A stretch of DNA of 26,194 nucleotides, taken from a virus. The stretch is from the IMG/VR virus record IMGVR_UViG_3300020214_000101, positions 1 to 26,194 of that record. The stretch is one strand, 5' to 3'. The position numbers and the translations under genes were made by a program. Below the pieces are notes generated by a model that was given only the letters and a program-made list of their open reading frames with translations, was not told the origin of the DNA and made no database searches. This document shows positions 12,996-24,570 of the stretch, piece after piece; the stretch's first letter is position 1; each line of letters starts with the position of its first letter.

Positions 12996-13186
12996 TGAGA
13001 AGATTCCAAGGTGGTGCTCTTATTTACTGTGAGTTCGATGAATGTAAGGTCATCTACAGTATAGTCGGTCTTCATTAAACCTACCATATTCTTAAGAGTA
13101 TTCCAAGTAATTTCAAACTCTTCCTCCTTGAGAGAATGGAAAAGGCAGCGTTCCTTGGCGTATATGTGGTAAATTTTCTCCATCAT
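12992..13186 (-). CDS. Conserved small cyanophage protein, 64 residues
   Basis: The protein begins MMEKIYHIYAKERCLFHSLK and contains EEEFEITWNTLKNMVGLMKTD (read across residues about 20-41); I recognise this kind of short protein from cyanophages, with no known function. It may start at the first or the second ATG (13186 or 13183). Its TGA at 12992 lies within the -35 region of the next gene. Upstream, the minus strand shows TATATA-like sequence near 13208-13214 that could be a promoter, but no clear -35 box. It is the last AT-rich gene before the compositional change to the right. Confidence 0.7.
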   Translation of the reverse strand: MMEKIYHIYAKERCLFHSLKEEEFEITWNTLKNMVGLMKTDYTVDDLTFIELTVNKSTTLESSH

Positions 13187-13200
13187 TTAGTTAATTGACA

Positions 13201-13518
13201 ACCGCTTTATATATAAGTACTAAAATAAATCCGAGTGGTAATAACACTACCTTCGGATACCTTATTAACCATCCAGCAAGCACAACCTTCCAAAAATTCC
13301 AGTAGGGGGTATTTCGGTATTTTTTTCTGGGAGAAATTTTTTTGTATGACACGGAATCAATCTTTGAATTTGGTTGAGTTCTTGTTGAATAATTTTCGGT
13401 CGCTTGGGGACCTTTGTAGGTTACATAGGACCCATTTTTTAATAAGGGGGGGGGCGCACGGCGACCGCCATAACGATAACGTTATATCGTATAACTGTCC
13501 TGCTGAAAGAACGAATAA
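13201..13518. other. Gene-free boundary stretch between AT-rich and GC-rich blocks
   Basis: No convincing gene is seen on either strand. The left part is AT-rich with runs of T; a run of nine G (13446-13454) then marks an abrupt change to GC-rich sequence. At 13476-13485 there is a palindrome ATAACGTTAT within a wider imperfect dyad. A plus-strand TTGACA at 13195-13200 faces this stretch but has no matching gene. Confidence 0.5.
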
Positions 13519-13544
13519 GGGGGACGGTCCTGGAACTGTCCCCC
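13519..13544 (-). terminator. Hairpin after the 60-residue gene
   Basis: GGGGGAC (13519-13525) pairs with GTCCCCC (13538-13544), and the stem extends inwards by further pairs. It lies just after the stop codon of the gene ending at 13553. The T run after the stem is weak (TTATTCGTT on the minus strand), so termination is likely but not certain. Confidence 0.55.
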
Positions 13545-13552
13545 CATAAGAA

Positions 13553-13735
13553 TCAATCCAGGTCGGGTGTGCTCACTTCGTGGGCATAGCGATCGGCGTA
13601 GCATCCTGCCAACCACCAACCCTCCACTGGGTTGATCTGTCCAGCGAACGTATGCTGGGGGGCATCATCGGTCTTGCGAGAAACCCACATGGTTTCGCGG
13701 GTTTCGATGTTGCTGCAGGCGGAGTAGATTGCCAT
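13553..13735 (-). CDS. Hypothetical protein, 60 residues
   Basis: I do not recognise this protein. It begins MAIYSACSNIETRETMWVSR and has a Trp/Gly-rich centre PVEGWWLAGCYADRYAHE (residues about 36-53). There is no membrane segment. The gene is GC-rich like its neighbours upstream. A possible extended -10 box (TGTAGAAT, 13763-13770 on the minus strand) lies about 30 bases before the ATG, and a GC hairpin follows the stop. The last gene transcribed in the GC-rich block. Confidence 0.62.
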   Translation of the reverse strand: MAIYSACSNIETRETMWVSRKTDDAPQHTFAGQINPVEGWWLAGCYADRYAHEVSTPDLD

Positions 13736-13762
13736 GATCGGGTGGGGTGCGTTTGCTCTGGA

Positions 13763-13770
13763 ATTCTACA
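13763..13770 (-). promoter_or_regulatory. Extended -10 box for the 60-residue gene
   Basis: The minus strand reads TGTAGAAT, a TG element directly attached to TAGAAT, 28 bases before the ATG at 13735. No -35 box is visible. Confidence 0.35.
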
Positions 13771-13787
13771 GGGTCTGGGGGCGGGAG

Positions 13788-13973
13788 TCAATACCCCAAC
13801 CACACCAGAAATTCGCCCGTATCGACCCTGCCGAATTTGGCGGTGGTGCCATAGTCGGTGCGGAAGTCATCCCACAGACCGTGCTCCTTAGCAGCTTGGC
13901 AGGCGGTGCTCCAGAGGATCGTGCCATTGTCGTCGGTGCAGTTCCAGAGGATCTCAGCGAAAGTGGCGTTCAT
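13788..13973 (-). CDS. Conserved small phage protein, 61 residues
   Basis: The protein begins MNATFAEILWNCTDDNGTIL and ends with DTGEFLVWLGY. The pattern of an N-terminal DNGT(I/L)LW and a C-terminal (D)xGEFLVWLGY is one I associate with small proteins of cyanophages and related phages; the function is not known. The ATG at 13973 is preceded by a leader with a GC-rich hairpin (13999-14020) and an extended -10 box TGCTATGAT (14024-14032). The gene stands alone between short gaps. Confidence 0.7.
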   Translation of the reverse strand: MNATFAEILWNCTDDNGTILWSTACQAAKEHGLWDDFRTDYGTTAKFGRVDTGEFLVWLGY

Positions 13974-13998
13974 CGGTAGGATTGCGATGGGGTGAGAA

Positions 13999-14020
13999 GG
14001 GGAGGGGTTGATTCCTCCCC
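13999..14020 (-). other. GC hairpin in the leader of the 61-residue gene
   Basis: GGGGAGG (13999-14005) pairs with CCTCCCC (14014-14020), with an 8-base loop. It lies downstream of the predicted -10 box at 14024-14029, so it would form at the very 5' end of the mRNA; it could instead stop transcripts from the gene to the right. No T run follows. Confidence 0.5.
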
Positions 14021-14023
14021 CGT

Positions 14024-14032
14024 ATCATAGCA
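14024..14032 (-). promoter_or_regulatory. Extended -10 promoter TGCTATGAT
   Basis: The minus strand carries TG-C-TATGAT directly after the stop codon of the upstream gene (stop at 14035-14037), 50 bases before the ATG at 13973. There is no clear -35 box; the TG extension may compensate. Confidence 0.45.
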
Positions 14033-14034
14033 GA

Positions 14035-14295
14035 TCAGACGGGCAGCAGCGCGGCGACCAGTCGATCACGCTTACGGATCGCAGTTGAAACGATGAACCA
14101 CTCATCACGCTTGCCGTTGGCGGAGCGGGTGGCATCCAGCACACCAGCGGTTTCCAGATCAACCATAAGGGCGTGAATGGTGCCCTTGTGGCGGCGGGGA
14201 TCCATCCCCAGATGATGCACTAAGTTGCTGCAGGTCATCGGTCCGTTCTGAATCAGAGCGGAGCGGATGGCAGAGCGGAGGAGAGATGCGAACAT
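14035..14295 (-). CDS. Small winged-helix-like DNA-binding protein
   Basis: The 86-residue protein reads MFASLLRSAIRSALIQNGPM and then TCSNLVHHLGMDPRRHKGTI and HALMVDLETAGVLDATRSAN, followed by GKRDEWFIV. This is the expected order of a winged helix: helix 1 (residues 3-16), short helix 2 (21-29), recognition helix with many basic and small residues (32-50), and a beta wing ending in WFIV (about 54-71). It resembles small MarR/ArsR- or restriction-type wHTH proteins but I cannot assign a family. The gene stands in the set of cassettes whose promoters carry a palindrome, so it is a candidate for the protein that binds there; this is inference from proximity. Confidence 0.65.
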   Translation of the reverse strand: MFASLLRSAIRSALIQNGPMTCSNLVHHLGMDPRRHKGTIHALMVDLETAGVLDATRSANGKRDEWFIVSTAIRKRDRLVAALLPV

Positions 14296-14322
14296 TGGTC
14301 GGTGTCGTTTGGTGACTTGCTC

Positions 14323-14355
14323 AGTATAGGCGGAGAAGGGGGCGGTGGAACCCCC
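14323..14355 (-). promoter_or_regulatory. -10 box and hairpin before the winged-helix gene
   Basis: TATACT (14328-14323 on the minus strand) is followed by GAGCAAGTCACC. Just upstream a GC hairpin, GGGGG (14338-14342) with CCCCC (14351-14355), closes the previous gene. The leader between here and the ATG is nearly the same as that of the next gene upstream (14603). Confidence 0.5.
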
Positions 14356-14366
14356 CTTGCGCCAGT

Positions 14367-14603
14367 TCAGAGATCGTCCATCATGGCGTTGATCTCCAGA
14401 CCGTCAATGGCAGGGTCATCCCAGCGGGCACCGTCGGGGGTCTCCTTGCTGCCACAGTCGCGGAGCAGGGCGACCAGATCCTGATAGTTGGCAGCGTGGC
14501 GGGCGGCATCATAGAGTCCCTCGTCGTTCTGAATCCAGAGGGCGACGTTCCAGGTCTCCCAGTTTGCCCATCCGTTGAAGGTGTCGGGGGTGGTGGCGGT
14601 CAT
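14367..14603 (-). CDS. Conserved small phage protein with N-G-W-A-N-W-E-T-W-N motif
   Basis: The 78-residue protein starts at the ATG at 14603; a longer frame exists upstream but would run through the promoter. It contains FNGWANWETWNVALWIQNDE (residues about 9-28), a motif found in a widespread phage and bacterial family of unknown function, followed by acidic helical sequence ending INAMMDDL. The Trp-rich motif is typically next to GLY(D) as here. No membrane segment is seen. It has its own -10 box and is separated from the winged-helix gene by a GC hairpin. Confidence 0.75.
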   Translation of the reverse strand: MTATTPDTFNGWANWETWNVALWIQNDEGLYDAARHAANYQDLVALLRDCGSKETPDGARWDDPAIDGLEINAMMDDL

Positions 14604-14630
14604 CGGTCGGTGTCGGTTGGTGACTTGATC

Positions 14631-14662
14631 AGTATAGGGGCAGAGGGGGCGGTTGTGCCCCC
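14631..14662 (-). promoter_or_regulatory. -10 box and hairpin before the NGWANWETWN gene
   Basis: TATACT (14636-14631) followed by GATCAAGTCACC on the minus strand. The hairpin GGGGGC (14645-14650) with GCCCCC (14657-14662) lies just upstream, between this promoter and the stop of the previous gene, so it may act as the terminator for that gene. Confidence 0.5.
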
Positions 14663-14674
14663 CCAATGGTCGGT

Positions 14675-14884
14675 TCAGCGACCGAACACCAGATCAGCGA
14701 TGGCGTTGGTGTTCTCATCACAGCGGCACCAGGCAATTGCCTTACCGCTGGCGGGCACCATCCAGATCATGCAGGGTTCCCCCCAGATCTTACCATGCAG
14801 GTAGGCGTGGCGCATGTCGGTTGCCCACTCACAACCGTGAGGATCAAAAGCACCCCAGGAGATGGGTTGGACTGCGAAGGTCAT
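14675..14884 (-). CDS. Hypothetical protein, 69 residues
   Basis: I do not recognise this protein. It begins MTFAVQPISWGAFDPHGCEW, continues with an aromatic, Met-rich centre (IWGEPCMIWMVPASGKAI, about residues 33-50) and ends DLVFGR. No clear membrane helix is present. The stop codon lies in a small hairpin (GGTCG and CGACC arms on the minus strand). Its promoter carries the first full copy of the 12-base palindrome. The leader immediately before ATG reads GGAACTCCA, which offers a weak ribosome-binding site. Confidence 0.62.
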   Translation of the reverse strand: MTFAVQPISWGAFDPHGCEWATDMRHAYLHGKIWGEPCMIWMVPASGKAIAWCRCDENTNAIADLVFGR

Positions 14885-14898
14885 TGGAGTTCCGTTGA

Positions 14899-14913
14899 AC
14901 TGAGATCAGTATA
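14899..14913 (-). promoter_or_regulatory. Promoter with palindromic operator-like site, copy A
   Basis: The 12-base perfect dyad ACTGA-GA-TCAGT (14899-14910) overlaps the -10 box TATACT (14913-14908). A protein bound to the dyad would cover the transcription start. Drives the 69-residue gene; a hairpin AGAGGG/CCCTCT (14921-14943) lies just upstream. Confidence 0.6.
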
Positions 14914-14955
14914 AGGGTTGAGAGGGATCAGGCGCGACCCCTCTTGTGCCACTGT

Positions 14956-15150
14956 TCAGACTGTCCAGGTGATCTGTTCAGGGGTGAAGCGGGAGAGAAC
15001 CTGTTGCAGGTATGCCTCAGCGACAGGGCGACGGGCAACGGGCAATCCCTGCTCCCATCCTGTGGCGACCCATCCCTGGCTGGGGTGGCGGTCAAAGGTC
15101 ACACGCTGTCCAGCGATCATGATCCAGGTTGCGGTGTTGAGATCGGGCAT
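14956..15150 (-). CDS. Hypothetical protein, 64 residues
   Basis: The protein starts MPDLNTATWIMIAGQRVTFD and ends with LQQVLSRFTPEQITWTV. The first half looks like a small beta sheet (TWIMIAGQRVTF, GWVATGW), the second like one helix. I cannot assign a family. The ATG at 15150 is chosen because the promoter with palindrome copy B lies 14 bases upstream. A 3' TGGCAC element follows the stop. High GC content like the surrounding cassettes. Confidence 0.62.
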   Translation of the reverse strand: MPDLNTATWIMIAGQRVTFDRHPSQGWVATGWEQGLPVARRPVAEAYLQQVLSRFTPEQITWTV

Positions 15151-15163
15151 CGGTTTGGTTTGA

Positions 15164-15178
15164 ACTGAGGTCAGTCTA
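15164..15178 (-). promoter_or_regulatory. Promoter with palindromic operator-like site, copy B
   Basis: The dyad ACTGA-GG-TCAGT (15164-15175) keeps both arms and overlaps the -10-like box TAGACT (15178-15173). The stop codon of the 51-residue membrane gene upstream (15171-15173) lies inside the dyad, so gene end and promoter are fused. Confidence 0.55.
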
Positions 15179-15326
15179 AGGTCTCAGGGTGGAGCATGTT
15201 CCCCACAGTGTGCAGGATCTTCGCTGTCACATACCTGGCAGGTTCCATCGGTTGCCAGAGCATCAGGAGCAGAGCGATTCCCGCTGCGGCCTTGAGCATG
15301 GTAGGATTGCGGGTTAGGGTTGCCAT
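15171..15326 (-). CDS. Small single-span membrane protein, 51 residues
   Basis: The ATG at 15326 gives MATLTRNPTMLKAAAGIALL followed by LMLWQPMEPARYVTAKILHT and a short tail. One hydrophobic helix (about residues 11-25) follows a basic N-terminus, so an N-in inner-membrane peptide is likely. It begins seven bases after the stop of another tiny membrane protein gene, so the two probably form one transcript and perhaps one complex. No family is recognised. A longer frame in the same phase runs upstream but would overlap the neighbouring gene. Confidence 0.6.
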   Translation of the reverse strand: MATLTRNPTMLKAAAGIALLLMLWQPMEPARYVTAKILHTVGNMLHPETLD

Positions 15327-15333
15327 AGGATCT

Positions 15334-15486
15334 TCAGCGATTGGAGGGCCAGAAGGGCAGGGAGACTGCTGTAACAGCGGCAGTGCCCAATACCAAAGCA
15401 GGAGAGATGAAGCAGGCAGGCAGCAGTAGGATAGCGGCGGTGCCCCCCACAAGGAGGGCGGTCATCTCACGGGTTTCGGTGTTCAT
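15334..15486 (-). CDS. Small membrane protein, 50 residues
   Basis: The ATG at 15486 gives MNTETREMTALLVGGTAAIL followed by LLPACFISPALVLGTAAVTA and a short end SLPFWPSNR. It is almost entirely hydrophobic after residue 8, with one long or two short membrane spans; the cysteine at residue 25 is not in a proper lipobox. A promoter-like TGCTACAAT lies 26 bases upstream, and the next gene follows after seven bases. Function unknown; small phage membrane peptides often alter host envelope functions, but that is not shown here. Confidence 0.6.
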   Translation of the reverse strand: MNTETREMTALLVGGTAAILLLPACFISPALVLGTAAVTAVSLPFWPSNR

Positions 15487-15511
15487 CGGTGAATCCGTTG
15501 TGGTTGAGAGA

Positions 15512-15520
15512 ATTGTAGCA
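15512..15520 (-). promoter_or_regulatory. Extended -10 promoter TGCTACAAT
   Basis: On the minus strand TG-C-TACAAT lies 26 bases before the ATG at 15486, right after the stop of the upstream gene at 15536. A G run (15522-15529) next to it may form the stem of the upstream terminator. Confidence 0.45.
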
Positions 15521-15535
15521 CGGGGGGGGAACCCC

Positions 15536-15700
15536 TCAGACTCCCCCATCAGTGTATTCGCCGATGATGATGCCATTCTGGCGAACCTGAGCGTACCCGT
15601 ATTCTTCAGAGAGGGAGAGGCAGAGATCCCAGGCACGATCCTCATCAATGGTGATGTTCTCCCAGGGAGCGGAGGGGCAGATCACGTCGAGTCGTTGCAT
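15536..15700 (-). CDS. Hypothetical acidic protein, 54 residues
   Basis: The frame from ATG at 15700 reads MQRLDVICPSAPWENITIDE, then DRAWDLCLSLSEEYGYAQVR and QNGIIIGEYTDGGV before TGA. The pattern (helix with E-D-R-A-W-D-L-C, then short strands) suggests a compact small protein; I cannot name a family. It has no membrane segment. The promoter with palindrome copy C starts 14 bases upstream of the ATG, which supports this start. Confidence 0.65.
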   Translation of the reverse strand: MQRLDVICPSAPWENITIDEDRAWDLCLSLSEEYGYAQVRQNGIIIGEYTDGGV

Positions 15701-15713
15701 TTGCTTTGTTTGA

Positions 15714-15728
15714 ACTGAGATCAGTATA
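15714..15728 (-). promoter_or_regulatory. Promoter with palindromic operator-like site, copy C
   Basis: Perfect dyad ACTGA-GA-TCAGT (15714-15725) overlapping TATACT (15728-15723). The stretch from the dyad into the -10 box is the same as in copies A and E. Upstream lies a perfect hairpin (15739-15756). Confidence 0.6.
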
Positions 15729-15738
15729 AGGGGTGAGA

Positions 15739-15756
15739 GGGGTCAGGTGTGACCCC
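15739..15756 (-). terminator. GC hairpin between cassettes
   Basis: GGGGTCA (15739-15745) pairs perfectly with TGACCCC (15750-15756), loop GGTG. It separates the stop of the 74-residue gene from the promoter of the 54-residue gene. There is no T run on the minus strand, so rho-independent termination would be weak. Confidence 0.5.
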
Positions 15757-15760
15757 CCGT

Positions 15761-15782
15761 GTGCCAGAGATCAGACTGCCAC
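15761..15782 (-). other. Hairpin with the stop codon in its loop
   Basis: GTGCCAG (15761-15767) and CTGCCAC (15776-15782) pair except at the central base. The loop holds the TGA of the 74-residue gene (15771-15773). Confidence 0.45.
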
Positions 15783-15995
15783 CCAGTAGGATTTGCCGTT
15801 GATCTCCCGCTGCTCTGCCATGATGTAGGCGGCGGATCCCATGCTGCAGCGCCAACTCTGGACTTGATAGTAGCACTCCTCCAGGGTGGAGGGATAGGCG
15901 CAAGTGCTGGTGATCTTACCATCCTTCACTGCTGCCACCGCGAACGGGTAGCGGGAGGGGGAGAGGATGGTCTGGAGAGGGGTGGGGATGGTCAT
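15771..15995 (-). CDS. Hypothetical protein, 74 residues
   Basis: The protein begins MTIPTPLQTILSPSRYPFAV and contains AAVKDGKITSTCAYPSTLEE and a Cys/Ser/Tyr-rich second half that ends REINGKSYWVAV. Three cysteines (about residues 32, 41 and 50) could bind metal or form a disulfide, but no known motif is seen. The start at 15995 is followed upstream by AACCGATG, the usual leader end here, and by promoter copy D. Not recognised as a known family. Confidence 0.62.
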   Translation of the reverse strand: MTIPTPLQTILSPSRYPFAVAAVKDGKITSTCAYPSTLEECYYQVQSWRCSMGSAAYIMAEQREINGKSYWVAV

Positions 15996-16009
15996 CGGTT
16001 GAGTTCCGA

Positions 16010-16024
16010 ACTGAGATCATTATA
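16010..16024 (-). promoter_or_regulatory. Promoter with degenerate palindrome, copy D
   Basis: ACTGAGATCATT (16010-16021) keeps the left arm of the dyad; the right arm has changed by one base, which turns the -10 box into a perfect TATAAT (16024-16019). A hairpin GGAGGG/CCCTCC (16035-16053) lies upstream. Confidence 0.55.
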
Positions 16025-16066
16025 GGGGCAAAAGGGAGGGGGTTGATCCCTCCGTTGTGCCACTTG

Positions 16067-16246
16067 TCAGAGCGCACCCTGACTGTTCAGAATCCCCCAG
16101 GCAACCTCAAACCCGTTAGGGGTGCGGTAGATACCGACGTAGCGGTTGCCGATGGAGACTGCTGCTGCCTCATCCCGAACACGGGCGCGAGGGTTGATTG
16201 CAGCGTAGAAGATCGGTTCAATGAAGCGGGGAGTGCGGATGATCAT
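16067..16246 (-). CDS. Hypothetical protein, 59 residues
   Basis: The frame from ATG at 16246 reads MIIRTPRFIEPIFYAAINPR, then ARVRDEAAAVSIGNRYVGIY and RTPNGFEVAWGILNSQGAL. It looks like a small alpha/beta protein with the strand pair RYVGIYRTPNGFEVAW; such a shape recurs in tiny phage proteins but I cannot name it. The start overlaps the stop of the upstream 46-residue gene in an ATGA junction, so translation is coupled. The TGA sits in the loop of a short GTGC/GCAC hairpin (16057-16077). Confidence 0.65.
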   Translation of the reverse strand: MIIRTPRFIEPIFYAAINPRARVRDEAAAVSIGNRYVGIYRTPNGFEVAWGILNSQGAL

Positions 16247-16383
16247 TTGACCAGTTCAGCAGGGGAACCACAGGAACGATAGAATTCTACCATACGCTCT
16301 GCCTCCACCAGGGTGGGGAAGGTTTGCGTTCTCCACTCGCAGGCATTGTAGGGAGACTGATAGCGAATCGTGAAACCGAGCAT
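16243..16383 (-). CDS. Hypothetical protein, 46 residues
   Basis: The frame reads MLGFTIRYQSPYNACEWRTQ, then TFPTLVEAERMVEFYRSCGS and PAELVK. A strand (GFTIRYQS) followed by one helix (LVEAERMVEFYRSC) suggests a small beta-alpha fold. The overlap with the next gene (ATGA at 16243-16246) and a perfect TATAAT 23 bases upstream of the ATG support this as a real gene. The function is unknown. It is too short for usual gene finders. Confidence 0.62.
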   Translation of the reverse strand: MLGFTIRYQSPYNACEWRTQTFPTLVEAERMVEFYRSCGSPAELVK

Positions 16384-16405
16384 TGTGGGGTCAGGCGACA
16401 GAATC

Positions 16406-16411
16406 ATTATA
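16406..16411 (-). promoter_or_regulatory. -10 box TATAAT before the 46-residue gene
   Basis: Perfect TATAAT followed by GATTCTGTCGCC on the minus strand. It shares the TATAATGAT start with copy D but has lost the palindrome. A short stem GGGGT/ACCCC (16413-16425) lies directly upstream. Confidence 0.5.
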
Positions 16412-16425
16412 GGGGGTGGCACCCC

Positions 16426-16665
16426 TCAGAATGCCACCAGTTGATCCAGATCCCATTGTGGCACATCCTGAACCTCACCGCCACAGTTTTGTGCCAGCCA
16501 GGCGTTAATGTGCTTGCTGGTGGTCACGCTCCATTTTGTAGTGGTGCGGATCCACCCTTTGCCAGGGACCAGAGCAGCAACGGGAGTGCTGTAGGAGAAG
16601 AGCACACAGGTGCCATCTGCCAGTTCCACTTCGGTCTTGTTGCTGCCGATGGGTTGGACTTTCAT
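16426..16665 (-). CDS. Conserved small phage protein (S-Y-S-T-P-V-A-A motif)
   Basis: The 79-residue protein reads MKVQPIGSNKTEVELADGTC, then VLFSYSTPVAALVPGKGWIR and TTTKWSVTTSKHINAWLAQN. The elements NKTEV, FSYSTPVAA, R-T-x-x-K/R-W-S-x-T-T-S/T-K/R-H-I-N-x-W are shared by a widespread phage family of unknown function (I believe it is catalogued as a DUF; the number is not certain). It is probably a small beta-barrel followed by one helix. Expressed from its own promoter with palindrome copy E. The start at 16665 is the only ATG before the conserved part. Confidence 0.8.
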   Translation of the reverse strand: MKVQPIGSNKTEVELADGTCVLFSYSTPVAALVPGKGWIRTTTKWSVTTSKHINAWLAQNCGGEVQDVPQWDLDQLVAF

Positions 16666-16679
16666 TGGAGTTCCTTTGA

Positions 16680-16694
16680 ACTGAGATCAGTATA
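16680..16694 (-). promoter_or_regulatory. Promoter with palindromic operator-like site, copy E
   Basis: Perfect dyad ACTGA-GA-TCAGT (16680-16691) overlapping TATACT (16694-16689). The leader from the dyad to the ATG (GTTCAAAGGAACTCCA) is close to that of copy A, with one base changed. Confidence 0.6.
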
Positions 16695-16699
16695 AGGGG

Positions 16700-16825
16700 T
16701 CAGATGCTCACTTGCTGGACTGAGGGGGACACTTGCTGAGGTGTCACAGGCGGAACGTGATCTAAGATGATACCAACAAACACGCCAAGGAGCACGAACT
16801 GCAGGAAGTTCTCAATCCGTTTCAT
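16700..16825 (-). CDS. Small single-span membrane protein, 41 residues
   Basis: The frame reads MKRIENFLQFVLLGVFVGII and continues LDHVPPVTPQQVSPSVQQVS with a final I before TGA. One hydrophobic helix (residues about 7-21) follows a short basic start, and the rest is a Pro/Gln/Val-rich tail that would face the periplasm. The cut-off from the promoter of the next gene is only six bases. Upstream, TGCTAAACT (near 16853-16861, minus strand) may be an extended -10 box. No family is recognised. Confidence 0.55.
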   Translation of the reverse strand: MKRIENFLQFVLLGVFVGIILDHVPPVTPQQVSPSVQQVSI

Positions 16826-16866
16826 TCAATCAGGGCAAGGGAGCAAAATCAGTTTAGCACGAAAAG

Positions 16867-16884
16867 GGGGGGCGGTTGCCCCCC
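16867..16884 (-). terminator. GC hairpin with short T run
   Basis: GGGGGGC (16867-16873) pairs with GCCCCCC (16878-16884), loop GGTT. The minus strand continues CTTTTCG. It lies seven bases after the stop of the 85-residue gene and is a plausible intrinsic terminator for it. Confidence 0.6.
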
Positions 16885-16891
16885 TGTAGAA

Positions 16892-17149
16892 TCACACTGC
16901 CACTTCCTGCAGATCACCACTACGGCGACCCTCAGAGATGAAGGTGCCCATAGAGCGACCCTTCAGATCCTCATCGGTCACCACTTCCACCAGATCGCTC
17001 AGGAAGGCGGGCGAAGCGGTGAAGGAGTAGGTGCGGTCAGGATTGGACTGGAACGCCACTTGCACAGTGCTACCGTCGATTTCCAGGGCAGCGATGGCGC
17101 TGGACTGTTCGGAAGTGAAGTTGCGGGCGATCACGGTTGCGTTAGACAT
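16892..17149 (-). CDS. Small protein, possibly KTSC-like, 85 residues
   Basis: The protein begins MSNATVIARNFTSEQSSAIA and contains ALEIDGSTVQVAFQSNPDRT followed by YSFTASPAFLSDLVEV. The order strand-strand with F-x-x-x-P-D-R-x-Y-x-F and a following helix resembles the small KTSC domain, although the length and the end (GRSMGTFISEGRRSGDLQEV) differ; I hold this only as possible. The gene has one of the best promoters of the region (17209-17237) and its own terminator, so it is likely to be made in quantity by host polymerase. Confidence 0.65.
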   Translation of the reverse strand: MSNATVIARNFTSEQSSAIAALEIDGSTVQVAFQSNPDRTYSFTASPAFLSDLVEVVTDEDLKGRSMGTFISEGRRSGDLQEVAV

Positions 17150-17208
17150 AATTTAGAATCAGCGATTAATCAGGGTTTGAAGGAGAGGCATTTCCCTCTC
17201 ACATTCAT

Positions 17209-17237
17209 AAGATACAACGGATTGGGGGTGGAGTCAA
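17209..17237 (-). promoter_or_regulatory. Sigma70-type promoter of the 85-residue gene
   Basis: TTGACT (17237-17232), 17-base spacer, TATCTT (17214-17209) followed by ATGAATGTG on the minus strand, 60 bases before the ATG at 17149. Same TATCTTATG form as at 19893 and 21116. Confidence 0.65.
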
Positions 17238-17282
17238 GCGGTAGTGGTCACTTGCCCAACTGGCACAATCCCGAGTGAGCAC

Positions 17283-17303
17283 AAAAAAAGGGGGGCGATA
17301 ATG
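17283..17303 (-). terminator. Intrinsic terminator after the 155-residue gene
   Basis: GGGGGGC (17290-17296) with GCCCCCC (17303-17309) and, on the minus strand, a following run of seven T (17289-17283). The features are those of a standard rho-independent terminator for the gene that stops at 17317; the stem's right arm reaches 17309. Confidence 0.8.
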
Positions 17304-17316
17304 CCCCCCGATCCTA

Positions 17317-17784
17317 TCACTTCCAGAGACCTTCAGCAATCAGGCGATCGAGCAGGATTTGCGAAAGGGCACCACACAGAGGACACCCAGATGAACGCTT
17401 GATTTCAGAACGCAGAGCGTACTTTTCAGACCTTTTGAATCCGCCGAACTTGTACCGATAGACTGCACTTACAGTGCGGAGGAGTTCGGTCTTTTGAAGA
17501 TCCCCACCAGTTACTTTAGGATAAGTGGGGCAGAAGAAACGGAAGTCTCCTTTCTGGCGGGAAAGGTTAAGTTCGTTGCTGATCAGTTTAGCGTCCTTTG
17601 CACCGAAGTAGGGGGTGAGTTCCACTTGCAACCAGGCGTGAAATGGTGCCAGTTCATCTACTGCAGCAACGGGAACTTGCTGCTGCTTTTGCATCTCTTC
17701 TACCGCAACTTTCAGGGTAGCGATCGAATCAGTGATCGTCTCCAGAGCAGCGGTCAGAGAGGCGATGCTGGTGTTGGCGGACAT
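17317..17784 (-). CDS. Hypothetical protein, 155 residues, coiled-coil start and Cys pair
   Basis: The start is set at the ATG at 17784 (MSANTSIASLTAALETITDS); a frame extending upstream would run through the leader and promoter. Residues about 6-33 form a likely coiled coil (TAALETITDSIATLKVAVEEMQ), followed by Gln/Val-rich linker, then a globular part with FHAWLQVELTPYFGAKDAKL and, near the end, RSSGCPLCGALSQILLDRLI, with a C-x-x-C pair that could bind zinc. I cannot name a family. It is the largest product of the GC-rich half and ends at a strong terminator. Possible promoter: TTGCAC, 17-base spacer, CATTCT near 17844-17872. Confidence 0.65.
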   Translation of the reverse strand: MSANTSIASLTAALETITDSIATLKVAVEEMQKQQQVPVAAVDELAPFHAWLQVELTPYFGAKDAKLISNELNLSRQKGDFRFFCPTYPKVTGGDLQKTELLRTVSAVYRYKFGGFKRSEKYALRSEIKRSSGCPLCGALSQILLDRLIAEGLWK

Positions 17785-17920
17785 TGGAATGTCGGTGTTG
17801 GTGGTTTGGGATCGGGTGGGGTTGTCTCCCCCCCGATGAACATAGAATGACAGATGCCAGGGGCAAGTGCAATAGGCAATGGACACTTACCGAACTGGCA
17901 CAAGGTCGCTAGACAGGCAC

Positions 17921-17944
17921 AAAAAAAGGGGGCAGTGTGCCCCC
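17921..17944 (-). terminator. Intrinsic terminator after the 46-residue gene
   Basis: GGGGGCA (17928-17934) pairs with TGCCCCC (17938-17944), loop of three, followed on the minus strand by seven T (17927-17921). It directly follows the stop at 17949. Confidence 0.8.
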
Positions 17945-17948
17945 TCAA

Positions 17949-18089
17949 TCAAAACTCAATCTCATCCAATGTAGGATCATTCATAGGAGAGCAATCCATA
18001 GAATCAGAAGTGATCGCATCAAGAATCGAAAGGATCTCATCACCAGTTTCTCCCTGGCGAAGCATCGAAACCAGAACTTTTGTAGGCAT
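17949..18089 (-). CDS. Conserved small phage protein, 46 residues
   Basis: The frame reads MPTKVLVSMLRQGETGDEIL, then SILDAITSDSMDCSPMNDPT and LDEIEF. The N-terminal pattern K-V-L-x-S-M-L-R-Q-G-x-T-G-D/E-E-I-L-x-I-L-D is one I recognise from short proteins encoded in phages, including cyanophages; function unknown. It would form two helices with an acidic tail. A TGATACAAT extended -10 box (18144 region, minus strand) lies about 55 bases upstream, overlapping the stop of the gene before. Confidence 0.72.
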   Translation of the reverse strand: MPTKVLVSMLRQGETGDEILSILDAITSDSMDCSPMNDPTLDEIEF

Positions 18090-20119: not shown

Positions 20120-20131
20120 TGCTAATATACA

Positions 20132-20162
20132 CACATATCACACGTTGTGCTCGTGATATGTG
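20132..20162 (-). terminator. Ten-base-pair hairpin spanning a stop codon
   Basis: CACATATCAC (20132-20141) pairs perfectly with GTGATATGTG (20153-20162); the TGA of the 66-residue gene (20138-20140) lies in the stem. It may end the transcript or control read-through into the next gene. Confidence 0.55.
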
Positions 20163-20338
20163 CCAGTTTCCAAACTGTCCTCTAGGAGTGGATCTGTGAG
20201 ATCTATTGTGTTTAGAATGGATGCTAGAACCTTACGATCATCATCGTATTCTGTCTCTCTCCATTGATGATACACAATCTCGTATATGTAATCCAACTGT
20301 GTATCGTTGAATGTTACGTTATAGTATGCACGATCCAT
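20138..20338 (-). CDS. Hypothetical protein, 66 residues
   Basis: The protein begins MDRAYYNVTFNDTQLDYIYE and contains IVYHQWRETEYDDDRKVLAS followed by ILNTIDLTDPLLEDSLETGT. It has a strand-helix-helix pattern, with many Asp/Glu and Tyr. No family is recognised with certainty, though the general look is that of other early cyanophage peptides. Its promoter (20388-20417) is the best match to the sigma70 consensus in the window. The end of the gene forms a hairpin. Confidence 0.68.
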   Translation of the reverse strand: MDRAYYNVTFNDTQLDYIYEIVYHQWRETEYDDDRKVLASILNTIDLTDPLLEDSLETGTYHEHNV

Positions 20339-21604: not shown

Positions 21605-21662
21605 CAGGAAACTGCGGTGACTCAATTAATATACCTCAAGATCAGTGACCCTGGGGCATCAG

Positions 21663-21686
21663 TGTGCCAGTTCTATACCTGGCACA
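21663..21686 (-). other. Perfect 8-base-pair hairpin with the stop codon in its loop
   Basis: TGTGCCAG (21663-21670) pairs perfectly with CTGGCACA (21679-21686). The loop TTCTATAC holds the TAG of the 66-residue gene (21673-21675). Best example of this element in the window. Confidence 0.6.
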
Positions 21687-21873
21687 TTTCAATCAGTAGA
21701 TTACGGATATCATACATTTCCATATCATCCATATCCATTTCGTTCATATCAACTGGGGCGAATTCCGAGAGATTCACTGTAGAATCATCGTAGATCGGTG
21801 CATAATACAATTCCTTCTCATTTTCATCGAGAGTGAAGATACAACCGTATCCAGTGGAAGTGTAGAAAACCAT
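21673..21873 (-). CDS. Hypothetical acidic protein, 66 residues
   Basis: The protein begins MVFYTSTGYGCIFTLDENEK and continues ELYYAPIYDDSTVNLSEFAP, then VDMNEMDMDDMEMYDIRNLL ending IEMCQV. The Met/Asp-rich segment (residues about 41-55) is striking: five Met and seven Asp or Glu in a short run. Two predicted strands precede it. No family is recognised. A sigma70-type promoter lies 28 bases before the ATG, and its stop is in a perfect hairpin loop. Confidence 0.66.
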   Translation of the reverse strand: MVFYTSTGYGCIFTLDENEKELYYAPIYDDSTVNLSEFAPVDMNEMDMDDMEMYDIRNLLIEMCQV

Positions 21874-24069: not shown

Positions 24070-24114
24070 AAGAACACTTTGCTTTACTCACATAGTGTAA
24101 CGTGTCGAAGTGTC

Positions 24115-24570
24115 CTATGGTTCCTCTGGTGTGACAGTTTCTGGACTGACCCTCCACGAATACTTTTCTTCTATTTCGTGTGTTACATCTGCAAAGTCTT
24201 GTAACTGACCATTCTTAAAATGAAGTCGCAGTCTTGGCCATTGTTCCCATTCACCTTTCCAATTTTCGGGATATACTTCAATATACCTCGTAAAGTAAAT
24301 CATTGGCGATAACTTACCGTGTTCTCCAGTTGGAATCCATTCGTAATTCAAAAACAGTGTTTTAGGATTGTATCTTGGATCATCCTTTTCAATGATTTCA
24401 AATGTGTTCGTTCCCCTGTAATCAGGATACCACAATTGACCAGAAGGATCTAACCAATAGAGAGTCATTGTTCCACCAATGCAATCCTCAATGTCTTTGG
24501 TTTGGCAGATTTTATTTGTAAATTGCTCGCCCAAATCATAAGACGATCTGAAGTAATCGAACATACCCAT
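24115..24570 (-). CDS. Conserved phage protein of unknown function, 151 residues
   Basis: The protein begins MGMFDYFRSSYDLGEQFTNK and continues ICQTKDIEDCIGGTMTLYWL, then DPSGQLWYPDYRGTNTFEII. The start M-G-M-F-D-x-x-x-S-S/C-Y-D-L-G-E-x-F-T-N-K and the Q-T-K-D segment mark a family common in cyanophages and other phages, with unknown function. It is a soluble, Trp- and Tyr-rich protein with no membrane segment. A good ribosome-binding site (AGGAG) lies before the ATG at 24570, with a three-base gap to the preceding gene. No cofactor motif is visible. Confidence 0.8.
   Translation of the reverse strand: MGMFDYFRSSYDLGEQFTNKICQTKDIEDCIGGTMTLYWLDPSGQLWYPDYRGTNTFEIIEKDDPRYNPKTLFLNYEWIPTGEHGKLSPMIYFTRYIEVYPENWKGEWEQWPRLRLHFKNGQLQDFADVTHEIEEKYSWRVSPETVTPEEP

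Follow-up and report, generated by a model that had tools for sequence, protein, structure and literature searches.

Several tiny genes in the IMG/VR virus record IMGVR_UViG_3300020214_000101 are preceded by similar -10 boxes, and the locus raises the question of which element their promoters hold in common. The stretch analysed here (the window) is the entire record of 26,194 bases, probably a genome fragment, and comes from a T4-like cyanophage, its top DNA matches being Kyanoviridae and baseplate genes lying at its low coordinates. A sequence-only reading had proposed that a 12-base palindrome fused to the -10 box is the operator of a shared regulator. Our analysis points to another element, overlooked in that reading, namely a 26-bp dyad further upstream, TGTGMCAGT-N6-ACTGKCACA (in its longer form (G)TGTGMCAGT-N6-ACTGKCACA), which we consider likely to be the shared control element of an activator-dependent, probably early sigma-70-type promoter class of T4-like cyanophages.

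An upstream dyad at a fixed distance from the -10 box

Lining up 180 palindrome-bearing contig sites revealed a second conserved block, and iterative, unsupervised alignment with free offset defined it over 26 positions, its first base lying 54-56 bp upstream of the hexamer at most sites. The dyad was found at its locked position in 159 of the 180 sites compared to none in shuffled sequence. With the upstream block as the only anchor, 205 sites had a -10-like box in the 13-bp stretch where one is expected, compared to ~4-19 for stretches elsewhere, and several types of start region appeared behind it, the palindrome being present in only some of them. Across the class the first base of the dyad lies 53-56 bp before the hexamer (~-66 to -41 from the assumed start), the dyad frequently shares bases with the stop codon of the gene before, and a recognisable -35 hexamer is usually lacking; a -35-like TTGAC at 17-bp spacing occurs in a minority of sites, as a sigma-70 promoter predicts. 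A dimeric protein seated on the dyad would most likely bring the host's RNA polymerase to the -10 box. Many contigs share another start-region family downstream of the dyad, TACATTACATTCGTTCCTGAG, in which the -10-like motif occurs twice, 6 bp apart.

The dyad matrix was trained on palindrome-bearing sites, while the tests with a strict dyad pattern and with cultured genomes are independent of the palindrome; the reversed-pattern controls keep base composition and not dinucleotide order. The strict pattern was present in at least 120 viral stretches compared to 2 for its reversed control, and the matches listed include 61 boxes at the locked offset, mostly TATAAT. A matrix test on nine cultured cyanophages placed 86 -10-like boxes at offsets 53-56 from dyads, against ~1.2 per other offset, and the same test returned 0 such boxes for T4 and 1 for Pelagibacter phage HTVC008M. 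Dyads exceeded first-order Markov shuffles in a matrix scan of S-PM2, Syn9, S-RSM4, P-SSM2, S-SRM01 and P-HM2. The core pattern gave 170 matches in 14 cyanophage genomes (14 for the reversed control), with every cyanophage above its control, weakly so in three, and 0 matches in T4 and in HTVC008M. The dyad recurs in T4-like phages of both Synechococcus and Prochlorococcus, and the promoter design covers viruses of marine as well as lake cyanobacteria. In S-PM2 the modules stand in front of small-gene clusters and of gp32, cobS, a helicase and the tRNA cluster, with psbA also preceded by one, though further away, and in Syn9 the dyads cluster in the small-gene region at 43-53 kb.

Within the window, a dyad ranging from strong to marginal accompanies all eight promoters between 14.3 and 16.7 kb, and three more modules lie outside this interval, all on the minus strand. 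The gene at 14675-14884 has a TATACT box with the palindrome at 14899-14913 (TATACTGATCTCAGT) and the dyad CCTGGACAGTCTGAACAGTGGCACAA at 14944-14969 (offset 56 bp, score 16.5), which overlaps the end of the preceding gene; between the two, at 14914-14943, is the GC-rich stem-loop GAGGGGTCGCGCCTGATCCCTCTC (-13.7 kcal/mol). For the gene at 14956-15150, a TAGACT box with a palindrome variant (TAGACTGACCTCAGT, 15164-15178) has a weak dyad, ATGTGACAGCGAAGATCCTGCACACT (15207-15232, score 5.2), at the locked position (54). The palindrome-bearing box at 15714-15728, in front of 15536-15700, has GGGTGGCAGTCTGATCTCTGGCACAC at 15759-15784 (offset 56, score 14.2); the TATAAT box with one palindrome arm changed at 16010-16024 (TATAATGATCTCAGT), in front of 15771-15995, has AGGGTGCGCTCTGACAAGTGGCACAA at 16055-16080 (offset 56, score 12.5); and the palindrome-bearing box at 16680-16694, in front of 16426-16665, has CTGTGACACCTCAGCAAGTGTCCCCC at 16724-16749 (offset 55, score 23.3). 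Three promoters are without the palindrome, a TATAAT box at 16406-16411 with a marginal dyad (16441-16466, score 9.4), a TATACT box of the leader family AAGTCACC at 14631-14636 that serves 14367-14603 and has a weak dyad (14665-14690, score 7.8), and a TATACT box at 14323-14328 in front of a predicted winged-helix gene (14035-14295), whose dyad lies at 14357-14382 (score 12.9). The further modules, also lacking the palindrome, are at 20124-20183 (dyad 20158-20183, TATATT at 20124-20129, score 21.7), 21628-21687 (dyad 21662-21687, TATATT at 21628-21633, score 17.2) and 24094-24154 (dyad 24129-24154, TACACT at 24094-24099, score 21.7).

The small minus-strand genes are packed in a GC-rich island (window 13000-18000, 48-60% GC, ~52-60% where the palindrome promoters lie; the left part is at ~26-32%, near 30%), and comparable GC-rich arrays of small genes were seen in many of the fetched viral contigs. 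Of 300 spacers between dyad and -10 box, 33% folded below all 20 of their shuffles, against 5% expected. The GC-rich stem-loop often present in the spacer would perhaps end the preceding transcript, and it fits a weak terminator for that gene.

The palindrome at the start region

The palindrome itself is real: ACTGAGRTCAGT occurs exactly at 14899-14910, 15164-15175, 15714-15725 and 16680-16691, and with a single mismatch at 16010-16021, where the box is TATAAT, as had been noted from the sequence. The overlap with a TATACT box, claimed for all four exact copies, holds at 14899, 15714 and 16680; at 15164 the box reads TAGACT (15178-15173). Read on the minus (coding) strand, the sites are TATACTGATCTCAGTTC three times, TAGACTGACCTCAGTTC at 15178 and TATAATGATCTCAGTTC at 16024. 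Partial boxes without the full palindrome do stand at 14323 and 14631 (TATACTGAGCAAGTC, TATACTGATCAAGTC), and a further similar box without it, TATAATGATTCTGTC at 16411, had been missed. Each of the five palindrome sites has its hexamer 28-29 nt before the ATG; for the two partial sites this distance is 33 nt. The palindrome is also above chance in the window, with 12 matches at two or fewer mismatches where 3.9 ± 1.9 are expected, a count reached in none of 100 shuffles. A collection scan found the 17-mer TATACTGAYCTCAGTTC in at least 119 viral-contig stretches compared to 3 for the reversed pattern, often several times per contig and up to six times per locus among the matches listed. The genes behind the palindrome promoters look unrelated because they belong to different PHROG families or to none.

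Such a near-perfect dyad at four unrelated genes, with a widespread family of relatives and a winged-helix gene close by, could be an operator through which a phage or host repressor, sitting over the start site, shuts these genes off together. An operator at co-regulated promoters should keep both half-sites, complementary to one another, and the palindrome behaves otherwise. Selection on the upstream dyad together with a loosely defined -10 box gave 608 promoters, of which 140 have both arms, 62 the right arm only and 43 the left arm only, so that a single arm is found in 105 of the 245 arm-bearing promoters. In promoters that do not belong to the canonical family, the arm positions match as complements at the chance level or less. 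The both-arm class is moreover inflated because most loci were fetched with the palindrome pattern itself. Elsewhere in the same promoter class the palindrome is rare: it is present at 2 of 104 dyad-class promoters in the nine cultured cyanophages, at 0 of 61 promoters of the strict-dyad set (matches listed), and at 4 of 481 in a matrix scan of the same loci. We therefore disfavour an operator over the start and regard that explanation as improbable. What survives of the shared-regulator proposal is that these sites look like promoters of unrelated small genes with a common regulatory design, and not that the 12-base dyad is its control site.

The gene at 14035-14295, suggested as the source of that regulator, encodes an 86-amino-acid protein modelled as a winged helix (mean pLDDT 87), and the model resembles MarR-type domains in fold (best E 1e-3). 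The predicted fold was thus borne out, the gene has its own promoter of the dyad class, and ~110 relatives of the protein were found in viral contigs. Nevertheless, tblastn recovered no relative in 50,697 phage records, although these include cultured phages that carry the upstream dyad, and of the 199 promoters on contigs that carry relatives, only 17 have the palindrome. The protein was rejected as the shared regulator, and it is probably not the dyad binder either.

We read the palindrome as a mark of one promoter-cassette family in a subset of phages, formed where two independently varying pieces would meet: the left arm would be the -10 box plus discriminator (TATACTGATC) and the right arm part of a recurrent leader start (TCAGTTCA), whose RNA would begin near AGUUCA. 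A 5' hairpin (AGUUC...GAACU) could form in the leaders that follow the -10 boxes at 14913, 16694 and 16024; over the whole class, the folding of leaders is hardly better than that of shuffles. The palindrome may have acquired an operator role in a sub-lineage. In the fullest version of this idea, a virion-borne or immediate-early activator would act on the dyad and a second protein on the palindrome would switch the promoters off in one freshwater/estuarine lineage, so that the small early genes would be expressed in a timed pulse; we think this quite improbable.

A protein site, and candidates for its binder

The upstream inverted repeat might instead function as RNA, terminating or processing the transcript of the preceding gene at its 3' end, with a distance to the promoter that reflects packing. 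In favour of this, the repeat frequently shares bases with the stop codon, shuffled sequence folds less well than it does, and a second GC-rich stem often comes after it. However, no covariation between the arms is seen in a set of 157 distinct sites (the best pair reaches +1.9 standard deviations and several fall below expectation), and the distance from the repeat to the next -10 box is locked within 3 bp although the intervening stem varies. Since compensatory changes between the arms are absent, we take the dyad to be a DNA site rather than a conserved RNA hairpin, a role that we judge very improbable; the lack of covariation together with the rigid distance to the -10 box indicates a protein bound to DNA.

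The protein on the dyad could come from the host or from the virion. A host regulator, making the promoters active before any phage protein and with no virion-borne or phage-encoded activator, is a possible but clearly less likely variant. Early promoters must work at once, the dyad is common to phages of both host genera, and in several host genomes the core pattern is ~1.5-2.5x over control, so that a host factor is possible. On the other hand, the complete module with TATAAT was found 19 times in 2.8 Mb of cyanophage sequence and once in 25.3 Mb from ten cyanobacterial genomes, including WH7803. This near absence from host genomes led us to reject a copied host regulon and to regard the site as a phage device. 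Besides the host enrichment, several points weigh against the activator-dependent class as we describe it. The dyad is scarce in three of the nine cultured cyanophages (S-CREM1, S-SM1 and DSL-LC02), and at three of the eight promoters between 14.3 and 16.7 kb it is weak (scores 5.2-9.4). The presence of one palindrome arm is statistically associated with that of the other (odds ratio 19, most loci having been fetched with that pattern). The candidate core cyanophage proteins yielded no convincing dyad binder, and the start sites and early timing of the dyad promoters, like activation and the binding protein itself, are deduced from sequence.

Among individual candidates, S-PM2d194 (PHROG 385, labelled transcriptional regulator) is present in most cyanophages and was rejected as binder when it was not found in the dyad-bearing P-HM2. 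S-PM2d164 (PHROG 481) has the dyad in front of it in S-PM2, S-RSM4, P-HM2 and S-SRM01 and lacks a clear one in the five remaining phages, and it matches no recognised DNA-binding family. The top-scoring dyads with a locked -10 box (S-PM2 LN828717 111158-111246; S-RSM4 30431) lie 88 bp before the gene of this conserved 79-amino-acid protein, whose function is unassigned.

Relation to known phage promoters

For Syn9 and P-TIM40, Doron et al. 2016 (ISME J, doi 10.1038/ismej.2015.210) reportedly described a novel regulatory element of early genes, abundant and conserved among T4-like cyanophages. Our upstream dyad is probably the same element, and for that reason we do not claim it as new. That description may not extend to the -10/leader family with the palindrome, nor to contigs from lakes and estuaries.

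Cyanomyoviruses have been reported to lack alt, modA, motA and asiA, and their early and middle control has been described as unclear (PMC2984593); a further report states that T4-like middle promoters are missing in cyanophages and that motA and asiA are lacking (PMC5780444). The promoters of the dyad class resemble T4 middle promoters, with their MotA box and sigma appropriation, in that a phage-specific upstream box replaces the -35 element while the -10 box is kept, but the box here is a 26-bp dyad centred near -54 and not a short MotA box near -30. Assignment to the T4 middle class is contradicted by a dyad that starts 53-56 bp before the -10 box and by the absence of motA and asiA, the latter taken from PMC2984593 with no search made. 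Nor do the boxes (TATACT, TATAAT, TAGACT and TACATT) have the TATAAATA-type -10 of gp55-dependent T4 late promoters.

PeSLs are reported to be mobile regulatory cassettes in which T4-type phages pair a promoter with a stem-loop (Arbiol 2010 and Comeau 2014, as cited in PMC4503421). The modules studied here are similar in that promoter and stem-loop units stand between small unrelated genes, and different in that the stem-loop is placed inside the promoter, between the upstream dyad and the -10 box. The S-PM2 ORFanage has a low PeSL density and a host-like early promoter was named there (PMC4503421); unlike that promoter, the dyad class is usually without a -35 element. Puxty et al. 2018 (PMC5931967) interpreted motifs conserved upstream of cyanomyovirus psbA as -35 and -10 elements, and psbA of S-PM2 also has a dyad, at 125617. 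This dyad is ~76 bp before the -10 box, ~two helical turns beyond the usual distance, with a normal TTGACG -35 in between.

The means by which T4-like cyanophages start their first genes, in the absence of the T4 factors Alt, ModA, MotA and AsiA, count as an unsolved question in PMC2984593. A 26-bp site at a fixed position, countable in any genome, offers a concrete bait for finding the activator, and it predicts the promoters of many small genes of unassigned function. The locus is also a warning, as the eye-catching palindrome at the -10 box is not the control site that these promoters would share.

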